Source of the DNA: Accumulibacter sp.
GTDB taxonomy: Bacteria; Pseudomonadota; Gammaproteobacteria; Burkholderiales; Rhodocyclaceae
Reading direction: 5' to 3'
Length of the DNA stretch: 64,000 bases
Assembly (NCBI GenBank): GCA_024235695.1
Contig: JACKLX010000001.1
Span: 434,001 to 498,000, forward strand
Shown: positions 1 to 5,224 of the stretch, one piece after another
Numbering within the stretch: position 1 is the stretch's first letter
Layout of the letters: the number at the start of each line of letters is the position of its first letter
Notes under the pieces: generated by a model
The model's database searches: none
What the model saw: the letters and a program-made list of their open reading frames with translations, nothing else
Told to the model about the DNA's origin: nothing
Position numbers and translations under genes: made by a program

Positions 1-785
1 TTCAGCAAACGTTCGATGGTGCCGACGTGCGCCGCCACCAACAGCGAGCGTTCCCAGTCCATTGCCGTGCCGAAGACGCTGGCGCCGCCACCGACGGTGC
101 CGAGGACCGCGTCGCTGGCGACCACGGCGTCCTCGAAAACCAGTTCGCCGACCGGTGACGTGCGCAGGCCCATCTTGGCGAACTTCTGGCCAGCCGAGAA
201 TCCGGCGAGGCCGCGGTCGACCAGGAAGGCCGTGACGCCGCCGTGAAAGCCCTTCGCGGGGTCGGTGACAGCAAACACGACCACCACGTCGGCGACCGGG
301 CCGTTGGAGATGAAGGTCTTGCTGCCGTTCAGACGCCAGCCGTCGCCGGCGCGCTCGGCGCGCAGCCGCATGGCGAAGGTATCCGACCCCGAATCGGGTT
401 CGGTGATGGCGTGCGCGCCAACCAGCGTGCCGTCGCACAGGCCGCGCAGGTAGCGCTGCTTCTGTGCCTCGCTGCCGTGTTGCCAGACCGGAACGACGCA
501 GGCCAGGACATGGGCGCAGATCGAAAAAACCAGGCCACCGTCGCGGCAGCCGTAGCCGAGGGCCTCGAGCGCGACGGCGCAGCTCAGCGGGTCAAGGCCG
601 ACGCCGCCGTACTCTTCCGGCGCCGGCAGGCCGAGCAGGCCGACGGCGGCGCAATGGCGCCACAGGTCGCGCCGGAAGCTCTGCGCGCGGTCGCGCTCGA
701 CCACCTCGTGATTGAGTTCGCCGCGGGCAAACCTGACGATGCTGTCGCGTAGCAGCTTCTGCTCGCTGCTCAGATCGAAGTCCAT
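1..785 (-). CDS. acyl-CoA-dehydrogenase-like flavoenzyme, partial (candidate prolyl-carrier dehydrogenase)
   Basis: The gene runs off the left edge, so only about 261 N-terminal residues are visible; the C-terminal helical domain with the catalytic base is missing. The start is ATG at 785, inside a TGATG junction with the ligase stop, so the two are translationally coupled. The visible part has the N-terminal helical domain and the FAD-contacting motif AITEPDSGSD, then the beta-domain and MDWER near the cut. The stretch around GCRDGGLVF and AHVLAC resembles, from memory, the PltE/RedW family that oxidises prolyl-S-carrier to pyrrolyl-2-carboxyl-S-carrier, rather than fatty-acid enzymes. The adjacent carrier protein and proline-type adenylation enzyme support that reading. 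Membership in the flavoprotein superfamily is secure. The substrate is inferred, and an ordinary acyl-CoA dehydrogenase remains possible. Confidence 0.85.
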   Translation of the reverse strand, partial: MDFDLSSEQKLLRDSIVRFARGELNHEVVERDRAQSFRRDLWRHCAAVGLLGLPAPEEYGGVGLDPLSCAVALEALGYGCRDGGLVFSICAHVLACVVPVWQHGSEAQKQRYLRGLCDGTLVGAHAITEPDSGSDTFAMRLRAERAGDGWRLNGSKTFISNGPVADVVVVFAVTDPAKGFHGGVTAFLVDRGLAGFSAGQKFAKMGLRTSPVGELVFEDAVVASDAVLGTVGGGASVFGTAMDWERSLLVAAHVGTIERLL

Positions 786-2356
786 CAGCCGATCTCCTTC
801 AGGCGCTGGTAATCGATCTTGTCGGTCGACGTCTTGGGCAGGCTGTCAAACCAGGAGAACTTGTCGGGAATCATGTACAGCGGCAGGTTCTCGGCGCAGA
901 AGCGCTTGATCTCGATCAGTGACGGCCGCTTGACCTCGTCGCTGCTCAGGAACGCCGTGATGCTGACGCCGGCCTGTTCGTCGGCGAAGGCCAGCACCGC
1001 GGCTTCCTTGACCTTGGCGTGGCGGTACAGGCCGGCCTCGATTTCGCCGAGCTCGACCCGGTAGCCGCGGCGCTTGACCATTCGGTCGCGCCGGCCAAGG
1101 TAGGTATAGCAGGCGTCGTCGGCTTCGTTGACGATGTCGCCGGTGCGATACCAGGCGGTGCCGTCGGCGTCGATGAAGAAGCCCCGGGCGGTCTGCTCCG
1201 GCAGTTCCCAGTAACCGCGCATCACCGCCGGCCCGGCGATGCACAATTCTCCCTCGCTGCCGCGGCCGACCGCCGCGCCGCCATCGTCGAGTACGCGGGC
1301 GCGCAGGTGCGAACAGACCTTGCCGATCGGGTAGGGCGTGTTGCGCTCGGCTGGCACCGGCAGCGGCACTTCGTACCAGGTGCAGACGTTGGTTTCGGTC
1401 GGACCGTAGAGATTGAAGTAGCGCGGCCTTGGCCAAAGTGTGCTGAGCGTGCGCAAGTGCTTGACGGCAAATACTTCGCCGGCGAACAGGACCTGCCGCA
1501 AGGCCCCGTAGTCGTGCCTGGCGAGGCCGCCGAACTGCGCCAGCAAGGCGAGGATCGACGGCGCCGAGTACCAGATCGAAATGCGCTCGTCGGCGATCAG
1601 CTGCGCCAGGCGCGGCGCGTCCTTGCCAATGTCCTCGCCGATCAGGATCAGCGTCGCGCCGTGCTTCAGGCAGACGTGGATGTCGAGGATCGACAGGTCG
1701 AAGTGGAAGGGTGCGTGCGACGAGAAGCGGTCGGCCGCGGTCGGCGAGAAACTCTCGGAGCACCAATCGACGAAGCTCAGGGCGTTCTCGTGCGACAGCA
1801 TCACCCCCTTCGGCTTGCCGGTCGACCCCGAGGTGTAGAGGATGTAGGCCAGGTCGTCGGGCTCGTTGCCGACCTTATCGGCGGCGACCGCAGCGGTTTG
1901 CCGGTCCGCCGCGTCGAGCGCGCTGTGCAAGCCGCTGCCGGCCGCCAGCGAAACGTCGACGGCGATCGACGCCGGCGTCGCGCCGAGCTCGCCGAGCGCG
2001 CTGCCGAGCTTGTCGGCCAGACTTGCCGCAACCACCACCACCTTGACCCGGCAGTTGTGCAGGATGTATGCGCCGCGCGCCGCCGGCGCGCCGGGATCGA
2101 CCGGCACGTAGGCCGCGCCGGCTTTCAGCGCGCCGAGCAGCGTCGCCACCGAGTCGATCGACTTGGGCAGGTAGATCCCGACGCGGTCGCCGCGCCCGAC
2201 ACCGAGCTTTGCCAGCCGGTCGCGCAGCCGATCGGACAGGGCGTCCAGTTCGCCGTAGCTGATCGAGCCCTGGCCGGGCTCGACGACAGCCACCGCCTGC
2301 GGGTTTTGTCGCGCGCTGGCGATGAACAGCTCATGCAGGCAGCTGGTCGCGCTCAT
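785..2356 (-). CDS. standalone amino-acid adenylation enzyme (prolyl-AMP ligase type, DltA/PltF-like)
   Basis: A 523-residue AMP-forming ligase that should activate an amino acid with ATP and load it on the adjacent carrier protein. It has the P-loop-like motif YTSGSTGKPKG (174-184), HAPFHFDLSILD (214-225), YGPTET (317-322), YRTGD (403-407) and the C-terminal lysine in TDKID (K513). The residues that line the pocket, aligned by eye to GrsA, are D220, L221, L224, Y263, L290, A292, L316, V324, C325 and K513. That string matches the proline code I remember for PltF/RedM-type enzymes. There is no condensation or thiolation domain, as in DltA. I chose ATG at 2356 because it forms TGATG with the carrier stop; a GTG at 2359 would add one residue. 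The adenylation family is certain and proline specificity is likely. Confidence 0.9.
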   Translation of the reverse strand: MSATSCLHELFIASARQNPQAVAVVEPGQGSISYGELDALSDRLRDRLAKLGVGRGDRVGIYLPKSIDSVATLLGALKAGAAYVPVDPGAPAARGAYILHNCRVKVVVVAASLADKLGSALGELGATPASIAVDVSLAAGSGLHSALDAADRQTAAVAADKVGNEPDDLAYILYTSGSTGKPKGVMLSHENALSFVDWCSESFSPTAADRFSSHAPFHFDLSILDIHVCLKHGATLILIGEDIGKDAPRLAQLIADERISIWYSAPSILALLAQFGGLARHDYGALRQVLFAGEVFAVKHLRTLSTLWPRPRYFNLYGPTETNVCTWYEVPLPVPAERNTPYPIGKVCSHLRARVLDDGGAAVGRGSEGELCIAGPAVMRGYWELPEQTARGFFIDADGTAWYRTGDIVNEADDACYTYLGRRDRMVKRRGYRVELGEIEAGLYRHAKVKEAAVLAFADEQAGVSITAFLSSDEVKRPSLIEIKRFCAENLPLYMIPDKFSWFDSLPKTSTDKIDYQRLKEIG

Positions 2357-2616
2357 CACGCTGCCGACGGGTTCTTGGCGCGGAGCAGGCGGACGATGCT
2401 GGCCAGATCGTCGAGGTTCTCCTTATCGACCTCGTGCGGCTCGAAGCTGACGCCGTACTGCTCTTCCATGAACATCACCAGCTTGAGCGTCGCGATCGAG
2501 TCGAGAATGCCACCACTGATCAAGGGCGTCGTTGCGGTAAGTTCATCGGGGTCTTCACCGGGGAGGAACTCCTCCATGATGAAGTTCTTGATTTTCTGCA
2601 TCAGCTCGTCGGACAT
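2356..2616 (-). CDS. acyl/peptidyl carrier protein (DltC/PltL-like)
   Basis: An 86-residue carrier protein. The phosphopantetheine attachment serine is S40 in GGILDSIATLKL, the usual start of helix 2. The charge pattern and length fit small dedicated carriers such as DltC or PltL. It should receive the aminoacyl group from the downstream ligase and present it to the flavoenzyme and the membrane acyltransferase. A clear ribosome-binding site (AGGAG about 8 bases before ATG) supports the start. It lies 58 bases after the MBOAT gene and its stop overlaps the ligase start. A phosphopantetheinyl transferase is not in the window and must be supplied elsewhere. Confidence 0.93.
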   Translation of the reverse strand: MSDELMQKIKNFIMEEFLPGEDPDELTATTPLISGGILDSIATLKLVMFMEEQYGVSFEPHEVDKENLDDLASIVRLLRAKNPSAA

Positions 2617-2674
2617 CGGTTGGCTCCTGAAGGATGGTGGAACGGTGGCGACGCGGCAACGGCGTCGCTGGTGC

Positions 2675-5224
2675 TCAATTGCCCGCGCCGCCGGCAGCGC
2701 GGCCGAAGAGGATCGCCGGATCGGCCTGCAGGCGACGGTAAAGGGCGTCGGCGACCAGGCGGTGACCGAGTTCGTTGGGATGGTCGTCCCACTCGGCGAG
2801 GCGCAGGGTGTCGACGTCGTGACCGGCGTAGACGTCCGCCAGGTTGATCACTTCCAGCCCCACTTCGCTGGCGATGCGCAGGGTTTCCGGCGTCTCTTCC
2901 TGCCAGCTGCCTTCGCGCACCTGTGGCAGGAACAGCAGGATCGCGCGGATACCCCGTTGGGCACTGGTGTTGGCGACGCGTCCGTAGACCTTGCGCAGGA
3001 TCTCCGGGCCATACGGCAGCAGCAGCTTGAGCGCTTCGGTCTCGTCCATACCGGCCACCGCGCCCGATTGCTTGACGATCGCCGCCAGCTCGGGGTAGGG
3101 AATCGGCAGGCTCTTGTGCACCACCTCGGCGAGGTACGACGCAGAGCGGCGAATTTCACGGCCGGTGGCGACAAAGATGATGGCGTTGGGCTGGAAGTCG
3201 AGGGCCTTGTCAAGACTGACCAGTTGCGTTGGCGGCTGGTAGCCGGGAACGCCGAAGTTCAGCAACTCGACGTGCTTGAACGCCTTGCTGACCGGTTCGC
3301 GGTTCAAGCGTTCTTCGAGCAGCGCCTCGAAGGTCATGCCGTCGCCGACCCCCCAGCCCATCACCGTTGATGGGCCCAACACCGCTGCCCGCAGAGTTTC
3401 GGCCGGGCGTTCCTGCGGGTAGTCCTGGTCGCGCATTCCCCAGCGGTTGATGGTCACCGTGCCGTACTTGGTGGTCGACACGAAAGAGGGAATCAGGTCG
3501 GTCTGGCCGAAGCCGCCGGTGAAACGCCGTATGCCGGCATTCTCGACATCGAGCCAGTTCGCCGGTTTCTTCGAATACACCTCCCACAGCTGCGAATTGA
3601 AGCGGTCGACCGACAGCAGCCCTTCGTAGTAGCCACGCTCGAGCTTGGCATTGTCAAGGCGGCTGAGATGCGCCGAGCGCATCGAGTGCATCAGTGTCGC
3701 GAATTCGGCGCTGACCGAGGTGTGCACGCCCTCGATCGAAATCAGCACCAGCCCGAGCGCCCAGGCGACCGTGATCGCGCGATCGCGGAGCCACGGGCGC
3801 AGCCCGTTGGCCGGCGCGGTGACCGCGCCGATGCCCGGCAGGTCGACCGTGCCGAGGACGATCACCAGCAGGCTGAGGAGCGGAAAGAACAGCGCTTCGC
3901 TGGTGTAGGGCCCTTTCAGGGCGGGCCACAGGGCCAGCCAGTCGGTGATCGACTCGCTGGTCCAGAACGACCAGAGGATGCAGATGAACCAGAACGTTGC
4001 GTACGTCTTGGCGATCGTCAGCGCGGTGCTCTGCCAGGTTTTTTTCGCCTTGCCAAGACTGCGGTTACGGCCGTGCTTTATTTCGTAGAGCGAGTTGGCG
4101 ACCACCAGCAGTCCGAGAACGGCCCAGAAGAGCATGTCGTGCCAGGCCAGCAGCCAGCTGCCGCGCAGCCAGAACCACTGGTACGAATGCAGCAGCCAGG
4201 TCAGCAGGAAGACGTAGAGCGTGGCGATGATGATCGCCTTGTTGGTTCCCAGCCGCTTCAGTGCGAACACCGCTGGAAAGTAGAAGATCTTCTGCATGAA
4301 GTCTTTCCAGTAGATGTTGATGCGGCGCCAGAAGTCGGTGAAGCTGGCCGCGAGGAGGTAGCGTTTGTGCGTTTCGGGGAGGTCGAAACCGAACAGATGC
4401 ACCATGCCGACAACCAGGTGAAACAGGCCCGAAACGCGCAGGTAGAGCAGGAAGTTCGATACCACGTATTGCAGGAACTCGGCCGGGCCGGTCACTTCCG
4501 AAGGCGCCAGCGTGCCGTAGTAGTAGATGTAGCGGTAGAGCAGCAGATGAACGATGCCGCGGACGATCCAGTCGACCCCTTTCTGGTAGGTGCGGTGGGC
4601 ATCGGTGCTGTAGTGGCTGCGCCGGTAGGTCTTGAAGTCGATGACCGGCAGCAGCGGAAAGCAGGCATTGGGCAACATGAAAAAGTAGCTGGTCGACTGC
4701 GCCAGTGTGACCGGCGCCTTGTCGTGGCGCAGATCGTAGAAATAGGCAATCAGCCGGAACATGAACATCGCGCCGAGGATCGGCCAGATCGCTTCCGACC
4801 AGGGCGTCGGCAGCAGGCTGGCACGCTGGCCGATCAGCAGTGCGCCGAGGCCGAGCAGGATCGCGCCACGGACGCGAAAGGAATACGGCAGGTGGCAGGC
4901 GGCAATCAGTACCAGGCCGATGCCGATCAGCCAGACGCCGTTGACCAGGCCCAGGGTCAGCGGGATGGAGATCAGGCTGAGGGCGCTGAAGAACGGCAGC
5001 CGCGCCGGCAGCGGCAGGAAAGCGTGTACCGCAAAACCGGCAAATGCCAGCATCGCGAGCAGCCTGAAGGCCGGGCTTTCGATCTGGAACTGGCGCAGCA
5101 GCAGCAGCACCAGGCCGAGCTGAAGGGCTATCGCGGCAAAATCCCGGAAGCGGATACGGCCGCGCGGTTCGTCTGCCACGGTGGCGCGTGCGGCAGCCTG
5201 AGCTGCAGTGAGTGTACTATCCAT
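2675..5224 (-). CDS. MBOAT O-acyltransferase fused to SGNH-hydrolase-like domain (DltB-DltD-like fusion)
   Basis: An 849-residue inner-membrane protein. Residues 28-500 contain about a dozen hydrophobic segments. FWRRINIYWKDF (298-309) matches the MBOAT signature, and H346 in LLHSYQW is the likely catalytic histidine. After the last membrane segment (about 480-500) comes a soluble, probably periplasmic domain of about 340 residues. It has SGNH hallmarks: nucleophile-type serine S619 in LGPSTVMGWG, block II NFGVPGY (656-662), and a C-terminal WDDHPNELGH (812-821) holding the Asp/His pair. The usual GxND block is replaced by a sequence around ATGRE (686-690). In the Dlt system MBOAT (DltB) and SGNH-like (DltD) proteins are separate; here they are one chain. 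It should move an acyl group from the carrier protein across the membrane onto an envelope acceptor, which is unknown. It is the first gene of the operon. Confidence 0.85.
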   Translation of the reverse strand: MDSTLTAAQAAARATVADEPRGRIRFRDFAAIALQLGLVLLLLRQFQIESPAFRLLAMLAFAGFAVHAFLPLPARLPFFSALSLISIPLTLGLVNGVWLIGIGLVLIAACHLPYSFRVRGAILLGLGALLIGQRASLLPTPWSEAIWPILGAMFMFRLIAYFYDLRHDKAPVTLAQSTSYFFMLPNACFPLLPVIDFKTYRRSHYSTDAHRTYQKGVDWIVRGIVHLLLYRYIYYYGTLAPSEVTGPAEFLQYVVSNFLLYLRVSGLFHLVVGMVHLFGFDLPETHKRYLLAASFTDFWRRINIYWKDFMQKIFYFPAVFALKRLGTNKAIIIATLYVFLLTWLLHSYQWFWLRGSWLLAWHDMLFWAVLGLLVVANSLYEIKHGRNRSLGKAKKTWQSTALTIAKTYATFWFICILWSFWTSESITDWLALWPALKGPYTSEALFFPLLSLLVIVLGTVDLPGIGAVTAPANGLRPWLRDRAITVAWALGLVLISIEGVHTSVSAEFATLMHSMRSAHLSRLDNAKLERGYYEGLLSVDRFNSQLWEVYSKKPANWLDVENAGIRRFTGGFGQTDLIPSFVSTTKYGTVTINRWGMRDQDYPQERPAETLRAAVLGPSTVMGWGVGDGMTFEALLEERLNREPVSKAFKHVELLNFGVPGYQPPTQLVSLDKALDFQPNAIIFVATGREIRRSASYLAEVVHKSLPIPYPELAAIVKQSGAVAGMDETEALKLLLPYGPEILRKVYGRVANTSAQRGIRAILLFLPQVREGSWQEETPETLRIASEVGLEVINLADVYAGHDVDTLRLAEWDDHPNELGHRLVADALYRRLQADPAILFGRAAGGAGN

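Follow-up and report, generated by a model that had tools for sequence, protein, structure and literature searches.

The sets PltF, PltL and PltE (with PltA), PigI, PigG and PigA, and RedM, RedO and RedW each contain a ligase, a carrier protein and a prolyl-carrier dehydrogenase, PltF being an L-proline ligase. Pyrrole esters on sugars are known from coumermycin, which is a small molecule, and from clorobiocin, while AlmEFG carries out the glycylation of lipid A, a Gram-negative aminoacylation based on a ligase, a carrier and a transferase. In the Gram-positive Dlt system (DltA, DltC, DltB, DltX and DltD), a stand-alone ligase and a carrier work with a membrane-bound O-acyltransferase (MBOAT) of the DltB fold, to which the carrier delivers its acyl group, and an SGNH protein is the final transferase, as outlined in PMC12148441. 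In that source, PatA/PatB-type systems use acetyl-CoA as donor, consist of separate proteins and contain a C-terminal FXYXXF motif; these and other O-acetylation systems combine MBOAT and SGNH activities and have an invariant Tyr that lies between the active sites of the two. Here, we describe an operon that joins features of these systems and lies at the beginning of a stretch of 64,000 nucleotides, hereafter the window, from an Accumulibacter sp. (assembly GCA_024235695.1, contig JACKLX010000001.1, positions 434,001 to 498,000).

This minus-strand operon, whose size of four genes is judged from strand and spacing, encodes a fusion of MBOAT and SGNH domains, a carrier protein, a stand-alone adenylation enzyme and an acyl-CoA-dehydrogenase-like flavoenzyme, with TGATG overlaps joining the last two gene boundaries, a layout claimed by the original prediction and confirmed here. 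The stand-alone ligase, the carrier and the DltB-fold MBOAT are shared with Dlt, whereas the PltF-type ligase code, an oxidase that would act on the carrier and, in some relatives, a halogenase are not; moreover, MBOAT and SGNH are separate proteins in Dlt but form one chain here. With the Plt, Pig and Red sets the operon shares the ligase, the carrier and the prolyl-carrier dehydrogenase, and some related clusters also include a flavin halogenase near PltA. However, no polyketide or peptide synthase was seen here, and the partner is a membrane acyltransferase. Compared with PatA/PatB, the donor here would be a carrier, the linker is fused and its motif (GYYE) is different, while the transferases of AlmEFG and of coumermycin and clorobiocin belong to other families than that of the operon. 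The system appears to work like Dlt combined with PltF, PltL and PltE, and the curated cut-offs place it in neither group.

We consider it probable that the operon specifies a transmembrane pyrroloylation system, in which proline becomes a pyrrole-2-carboxyl group that an MBOAT–Tyr–SGNH relay passes to an extracytoplasmic hydroxyl, most likely on a glycan. Firstly, the ligase would activate L-proline and load it onto the phosphopantetheine of carrier Ser40. Secondly, the flavoenzyme would catalyze the four-electron oxidation of prolyl-S-carrier to pyrrole-2-carboxyl-S-carrier, a step that in some relatives would be followed by halogenation of the pyrrole ring by a flavin halogenase. In turn, the DltB-like MBOAT domain would take the acyl group off the carrier and hand it to a tyrosine of the linker motif GYYE, from which the SGNH domain of the same chain would transfer it via Ser619 to a hydroxyl group of the acceptor, most likely a polysaccharide at the surface or exported from the cell.

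The substrate is suggested by the ligase, which exceeds the cut-off of the amino-acid adenylation model (370.8 bits, cut-off 317.4) and finds in PltF its best single-domain chain in the PDB (367 bits; DltA entries at most 235). The pocket fragment alone gives 182 bits with PltF, 125 with a second proline ligase (7thn) and at most 103 with DltA entries, and its residues, placed by GrsA numbering, are identical to those of PltF at all nine positions readable in the alignment. In 63 ligase rows, in which the query is counted twice and three second copies of genomes are included, the code is DLLYLALVCK in 42, DLFYLALVCK in 9 and DLLYFALVCK in 7, the pattern DL[LF]Y[LF]ALVCK covering 58 rows and four other codes the remaining 5. 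Relatives fetched later include the codes DLFYLALVVK (L100) and DLLYNALVCK (L128), in contrast to the exosortase-A ligases of L018, L036 and the window's own genome, which read DASTATMR(A/S)K. L-proline is therefore the predicted substrate of the ligase. The closest PDB chains to the carrier are 6cxt_A (44.6 bits) and PltL (40.3 bits). As an observation on this gene, an insert of about 1.5 kb interrupts the ligase gene in a cassette of the same genus (L017:10588-12130, G378) and overlaps a 452-residue antisense frame that looks transposase-like by eye.

An ordinary D-alanylation or fatty-acylation operon with the fourth gene as a bystander would be favored by matches of the ligase to the DltA model (299.9 of 559.85 bits) and of the carrier to the DltC model (24.5 of 68) and to the ornithine-lipid carrier model NF052616 (106 of 130), all of which lie under the curated cut-offs. 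Against it stand the ligase code and the PltF match, together with a fourth gene that is conserved, occurs in varied gene orders and diverges in step with the others (see below), and we regard it as scarcely credible; D-alanylation and fatty acylation were set aside on the profile scores and the ligase pocket. Identity with the ornithine-lipid operon was rejected as well: PMC12493201 gives that operon a ligase of the GH3 family and a protein of the alpha/beta-hydrolase superfamily, and neither kind was found among the four proteins.

The flavoenzyme ranks with enzymes that oxidize carrier-bound proline. Its best PDB matches are entries named prolyl-ACP or prolyl-PCP (acyl or peptidyl carrier protein) dehydrogenase (4irn, 360 bits; 5zw0, 307; 6af6, 304), followed by 6cxt_B (299 bits), which we take to be the pyrrole oxidase Bmp3, and by isovaleryl-CoA dehydrogenase (286 bits). 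In NCBIfam, PigA (431.7 bits) and RedW (412.5 bits) come first, and the next model, at 300, is more than 100 bits lower. Moreover, a branch with support of 100/100 sets the enzymes of cassettes, of dispersed loci and of nonribosomal peptide synthetase (NRPS) clusters apart from six of seven generic acyl-CoA dehydrogenases; the seventh (L142), on a very long branch, falls inside the cassette side, and the L077 flavoenzyme, although scored as a partner in the survey of loci, groups with the generic enzymes, L077 being in none of the complete-set counts. Eight phyla contribute cassette rows to this tree: Pseudomonadota, Acidobacteriota, Gemmatimonadota, Rhodothermota, Hydrogenedentota, Planctomycetota, Myxococcota and Verrucomicrobiota. 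The catalytic residue E245 aligns with a position at which 5zw0 and 6af6 differ in the printed alignments (Glu against Ala), a difference that fits a deliberate active-site change. In another cassette (L018:11035-12178, G404), the flavoenzyme match is split between two frames, which join near residue 63, owing to a frameshift or an assembly error.

The original prediction had proposed Dlt-like transfer joined to a trio like PltF, PltE and PltL, and it is supported by the PltF pocket, the dehydrogenase ranking and the DltB–SGNH model described below. The ligase is nearest to PltF and the flavoenzyme to prolyl-carrier dehydrogenases, with the DltA and DltC models under cut-off, and the flavoenzyme does not cluster with generic acyl-CoA dehydrogenases in the PDB and NCBIfam rankings or in the tree. 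Such a trio could also feed a diffusible pyrrole antibiotic or pigment, the membrane protein being a tailoring enzyme, since in G153, G214 and a second copy in G377 related flavoenzymes adjoin further ligases outside any such cassette, those of G377 and G214 among NRPS-sized frames. Nevertheless, no NRPS or polyketide synthase gene adjoins the operon at the window's locus by eye, and the membrane protein is a constant partner, which makes a diffusible product very improbable.

The linkage of the four genes was examined by scanning named genomes with an alignment of the membrane protein, and the best 80 of 238 relatives were taken, corresponding to 79 loci. Because the search patterns came from the membrane protein alone, the carrier, the ligase and the flavoenzyme provide an independent test. 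All three are present in 47 of the 79 loci and in 39 of the 46 loci with at least 5 kb on both sides; with seven further loci, including that of the window, the set is complete in 53 of 86, three of the 86 being second copies. The transferase gene comes first, last or divergent, and this varied order speaks for functional linkage. The flavoenzyme was also searched for in the 27 genomes of 29 loci whose own stretch lacks part of the set; in three of these loci (L053, L077 and L084), a partial or generic copy was already evident. A cassette-type one was found in 17 of 27 (at least 347 bits, every other match at most 285), some of them on the adjoining contig piece or at a greater distance on the contig of the locus, and one being the partial gene of L084; in G256 it lies 9 kb from its transferase at the same locus. 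A ligase match adjoins in 10 of 13 such places fetched, two of them as fragments only.

In the reverse direction, a sample of 428 different genomes (369 from the class and 61 relatives, 2 being shared), one part of which was scored with at most five candidates per genome, contained the transferase in 7 (E 1e-20 and 1e-10) and the flavoenzyme in 9 (E 1e-95), all 7 within the 9 (Fisher 7e-14). At the thresholds used, 4 of the 28 genomes of the window's own genus have both and 24 have neither. Moreover, the pairwise divergences of the four proteins correlate across 50 loci (Spearman 0.39 to 0.75), with 0 of 999 permutations as high. The four genes are a conserved cassette, which occurs in eight phyla, and most homologous operons keep the flavoenzyme, in line with what had been predicted.

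In L019, a flavin halogenase gene lies between those of the flavoenzyme and the transferase, and 9 of 86 loci contain halogenase relatives, the WxWxI motif being present in 11 of 12 halogenase frames and the twelfth being cut off by a contig end. In G256, a genome of the same genus, the genes for carrier, ligase, flavoenzyme, halogenase and transferase lie scattered across about 14 kb. Since PltA acts on the pyrrolyl-carrier, the halogenase-bearing cassettes support an aromatic pyrrole. This evidence bears on prolylation, in which the same relay would move an L-prolyl or partly oxidized prolyl group and the flavoenzyme would be auxiliary or make dehydroproline only. The ligase code fits proline in that case too, and in L072 and certain other stretches the carrier, the ligase and the transferase occur with no oxidase in reach, the L072 genome having given no oxidase match. 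Against prolylation, the oxidase accompanies the full set in 39 of the 46 long-flank loci and occurs in the 17 further genomes, its catalytic Glu is conserved, and the halogenases adjoining cassettes, including that of L072, suggest an aromatic ring. Thus, pyrroloylation is favored by the presence of the oxidase in most loci and of a flavin halogenase in some cassettes, and we find prolylation unlikely. In L131 (G430:C238), a flavoenzyme, a DLFYLALVCK ligase and two halogenase relatives stand together, the membrane protein not being on that piece. The halogenase cassettes L019:10563-18999 and L100 have neighbors that look by eye like sulfotransferases, glycosyltransferases and an ABC glycan exporter, of which the family scan showed only a family 2 glycosyltransferase (L019:2071-3150).

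The membrane protein was assigned to MBOATs by profile comparison and structure model, since Pfam PF03062 gave no match over its cut-off in the fusion, nor anywhere in the genome, and PDB sequence searches with its profile returned no MBOAT, only chance matches or weak GDSL esterase matches. Comparison of its profile with MBOATs by hhalign gave 96.9% (E 1.6e-10), and an AlphaFold model built from 69 sequences (predicted local distance difference test, pLDDT, 87.2) consists of a DltB fold and an SGNH esterase; an earlier model was poor (67.8), and DltB entries still headed its Foldseek list. The linker motif GYYE, with both Tyr constant, differs from the FXYXXF acyl-shuttle motif, and its tyrosine is a candidate shuttle by analogy with PatA and DltX as treated in PMC12148441. 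The operon has no separate DltD gene, the SGNH domain being fused to the MBOAT instead, and a separate DltX is absent from its listed reading frames, which comprise frames of at least 60 residues and would miss a smaller microprotein. No relatives were found in the viral contigs scanned. Two or three MBOAT–SGNH genes per stretch occur in L045, L046, L064, L066, L067 and L072, with two carriers in L067, and possibly serve several acceptor positions.

Table 1. Features of the operon, with positions in the window and conservation in alignment rows.
Feature	Positions	Strand	Remarks
Prolyl-carrier dehydrogenase-like flavoenzyme	1..785	-	first 261 of 382 codons inside the window
Flavoenzyme catalytic Glu E245	51..53	-	kept in 55/57 rows
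Stand-alone adenylation enzyme, PltF-like, 524 residues	785..2359	-	alternative start ATG at 2356
Ligase amino-acid pocket, code read DLLYLALVCK	1382..1699	-	last K outside this stretch
Stand-alone carrier protein, 86 residues, GILDS motif	2356..2616	-	PP-binding over cut-off
Carrier phosphopantetheine Ser S40	2497..2499	-	75/75 rows
MBOAT–SGNH fusion acyltransferase, 849 residues	2675..5224	-	DltB-like membrane domain ~50-431, Tyr linker, SGNH domain ~551-838
SGNH His H815	2780..2782	-	89/91 rows
SGNH Asn N656	3257..3259	-	89/91 rows
SGNH nucleophile Ser S619	3368..3370	-	90/91 rows
Y532-Y533, G-Y-Y-E motif between MBOAT and SGNH	3626..3631	-	candidate acyl-shuttle tyrosine; frequency 1.00, 91 rows; invariant 69/69
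MBOAT catalytic His H346	4187..4189	-	91/91 rows; aligns with conserved WHG His of PF03062-positive MBOATs

The acceptor would be a surface glycan or lipid, and the gene neighborhoods of relatives favor a polysaccharide without proving it. Group 1 (11) and family 2 (8) glycosyltransferases are the commonest families among the 127 neighbors scanned; as a rough yardstick, the whole genome of the window (3.8 Mb) has 10 group 1 matches. An exopolysaccharide (EPS) polyprenyl glycosylphosphotransferase adjoins the cassette of L047 (Mesorhizobium), with 379 bits against a subfamily cut-off of 296. Exosortase-A ligases exceed their cut-off in L018 and L036, as does an exosortase-A O-glycosylation ligase in L026, which also has a pyruvyl-transferase relative under cut-off; several other neighbors in the same follow-up scans gave no family or an unrelated one. 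In the window's own genome, an exosortase-A ligase (788 bits) lies on a different contig. A pyrrole-2-carboxyl group could instead be placed on a lipid, a protein or a secreted small molecule, as the pyrrole esters on small sugars in coumermycin and clorobiocin illustrate, and by eye no glycan genes adjoin the operon in its own genome or the nearest relatives. Several cassettes, however, lie in or beside EPS loci, the SGNH domain is structurally like carbohydrate esterases, among others, and the MBOAT–SGNH pairs of known role in PMC12148441 act on envelope polymers, so that an acceptor other than a polysaccharide seems rather doubtful.

A number of observations weigh against pyrroloylation of a glycan at this locus. 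The flavoenzyme is under the curated cut-offs of PigA (500) and RedW (650), and the clade may extend beyond proline, because the ligases beside three related NRPS-cluster flavoenzymes have the non-PltF codes DLLYIGMGVK (L122, G377:C75:1-18000), DMLYLGVQCK (L123) and DIFFLGVGCK (L124); peptides with an oxidized ring from other amino acids are possible there. The complete set is missing in 7 of the 46 long-flank loci (L035, where ligase and flavoenzyme are in pieces, L072, L073, L076, L077, L095 and L099), and 10 of the 27 searched genomes lack a cassette-type oxidase. The L019 halogenase is a near tie between PltA and other flavin halogenases (5buk, 160.3 bits; PltA 5dbj, 159.8; ChlB4 7fco, 158.3; 3e1t, 154.1), CmlS, the NCBIfam model that fits it best, stays far under its cut-off (183 of 900), and the halogenases of the other loci share only 26-45% identity with it. 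In the window's own genome, a Trp_halogenase search found nothing, and the group predicted there is therefore plain pyrrole-2-carboxyl. The scanned neighbors derive from 530 frames, 140 of which were chosen by hand for phylum spread and 127 scanned. Finally, the arguments for pyrrole from halogenases and for a glycan come from relatives, whereas the window's operon is surrounded by unrelated genes, outside any glycan locus.

Cassette hosts include Candidatus Accumulibacter, Thauera, Mesorhizobium, Microvirga and many uncultured lineages. Candidatus Accumulibacter and Thauera form flocs and granules in wastewater, while Mesorhizobium and Microvirga include legume symbionts. We lean slightly towards the broader view that a widespread cassette, present in at least eight phyla and probably moved horizontally, decorates extracytoplasmic polysaccharides with pyrrole-2-carboxyl esters, halogenated in some lineages, so that bacterial matrices would gain an aromatic substituent open to oxidation, with cross-linking, hydrophobic aggregation or the masking of phage receptors as possible consequences. 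If so, an aromatic heterocycle, sometimes halogenated, would join the acyl groups that bacteria put on envelope polymers, antibiotic starter-unit chemistry would have been recruited to surface modification, and the cassette may matter for the properties of the matrix, for symbiosis and for phage adsorption. Moreover, such ligase–carrier–oxidase sets could be mistaken for small-molecule clusters in genome mining. Keyword searches of open-access literature, covering titles and abstract openings of part of the matches, with preprints and subscription papers beyond their reach, found no pyrrole or prolyl envelope-acylation system described. In L086 (Microvirga sp. VF16), the full set is carried on the 1.39-Mb plasmid pMVF16-2, a possible route of spread.

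At the window's locus, 315 bp separate the transferase gene from the next upstream gene on the same strand, which by eye encodes a CCA-adding enzyme. At the other end, the flavoenzyme gene extends past the window edge and is complete in the assembly (382 residues), and a convergent gene comes next.

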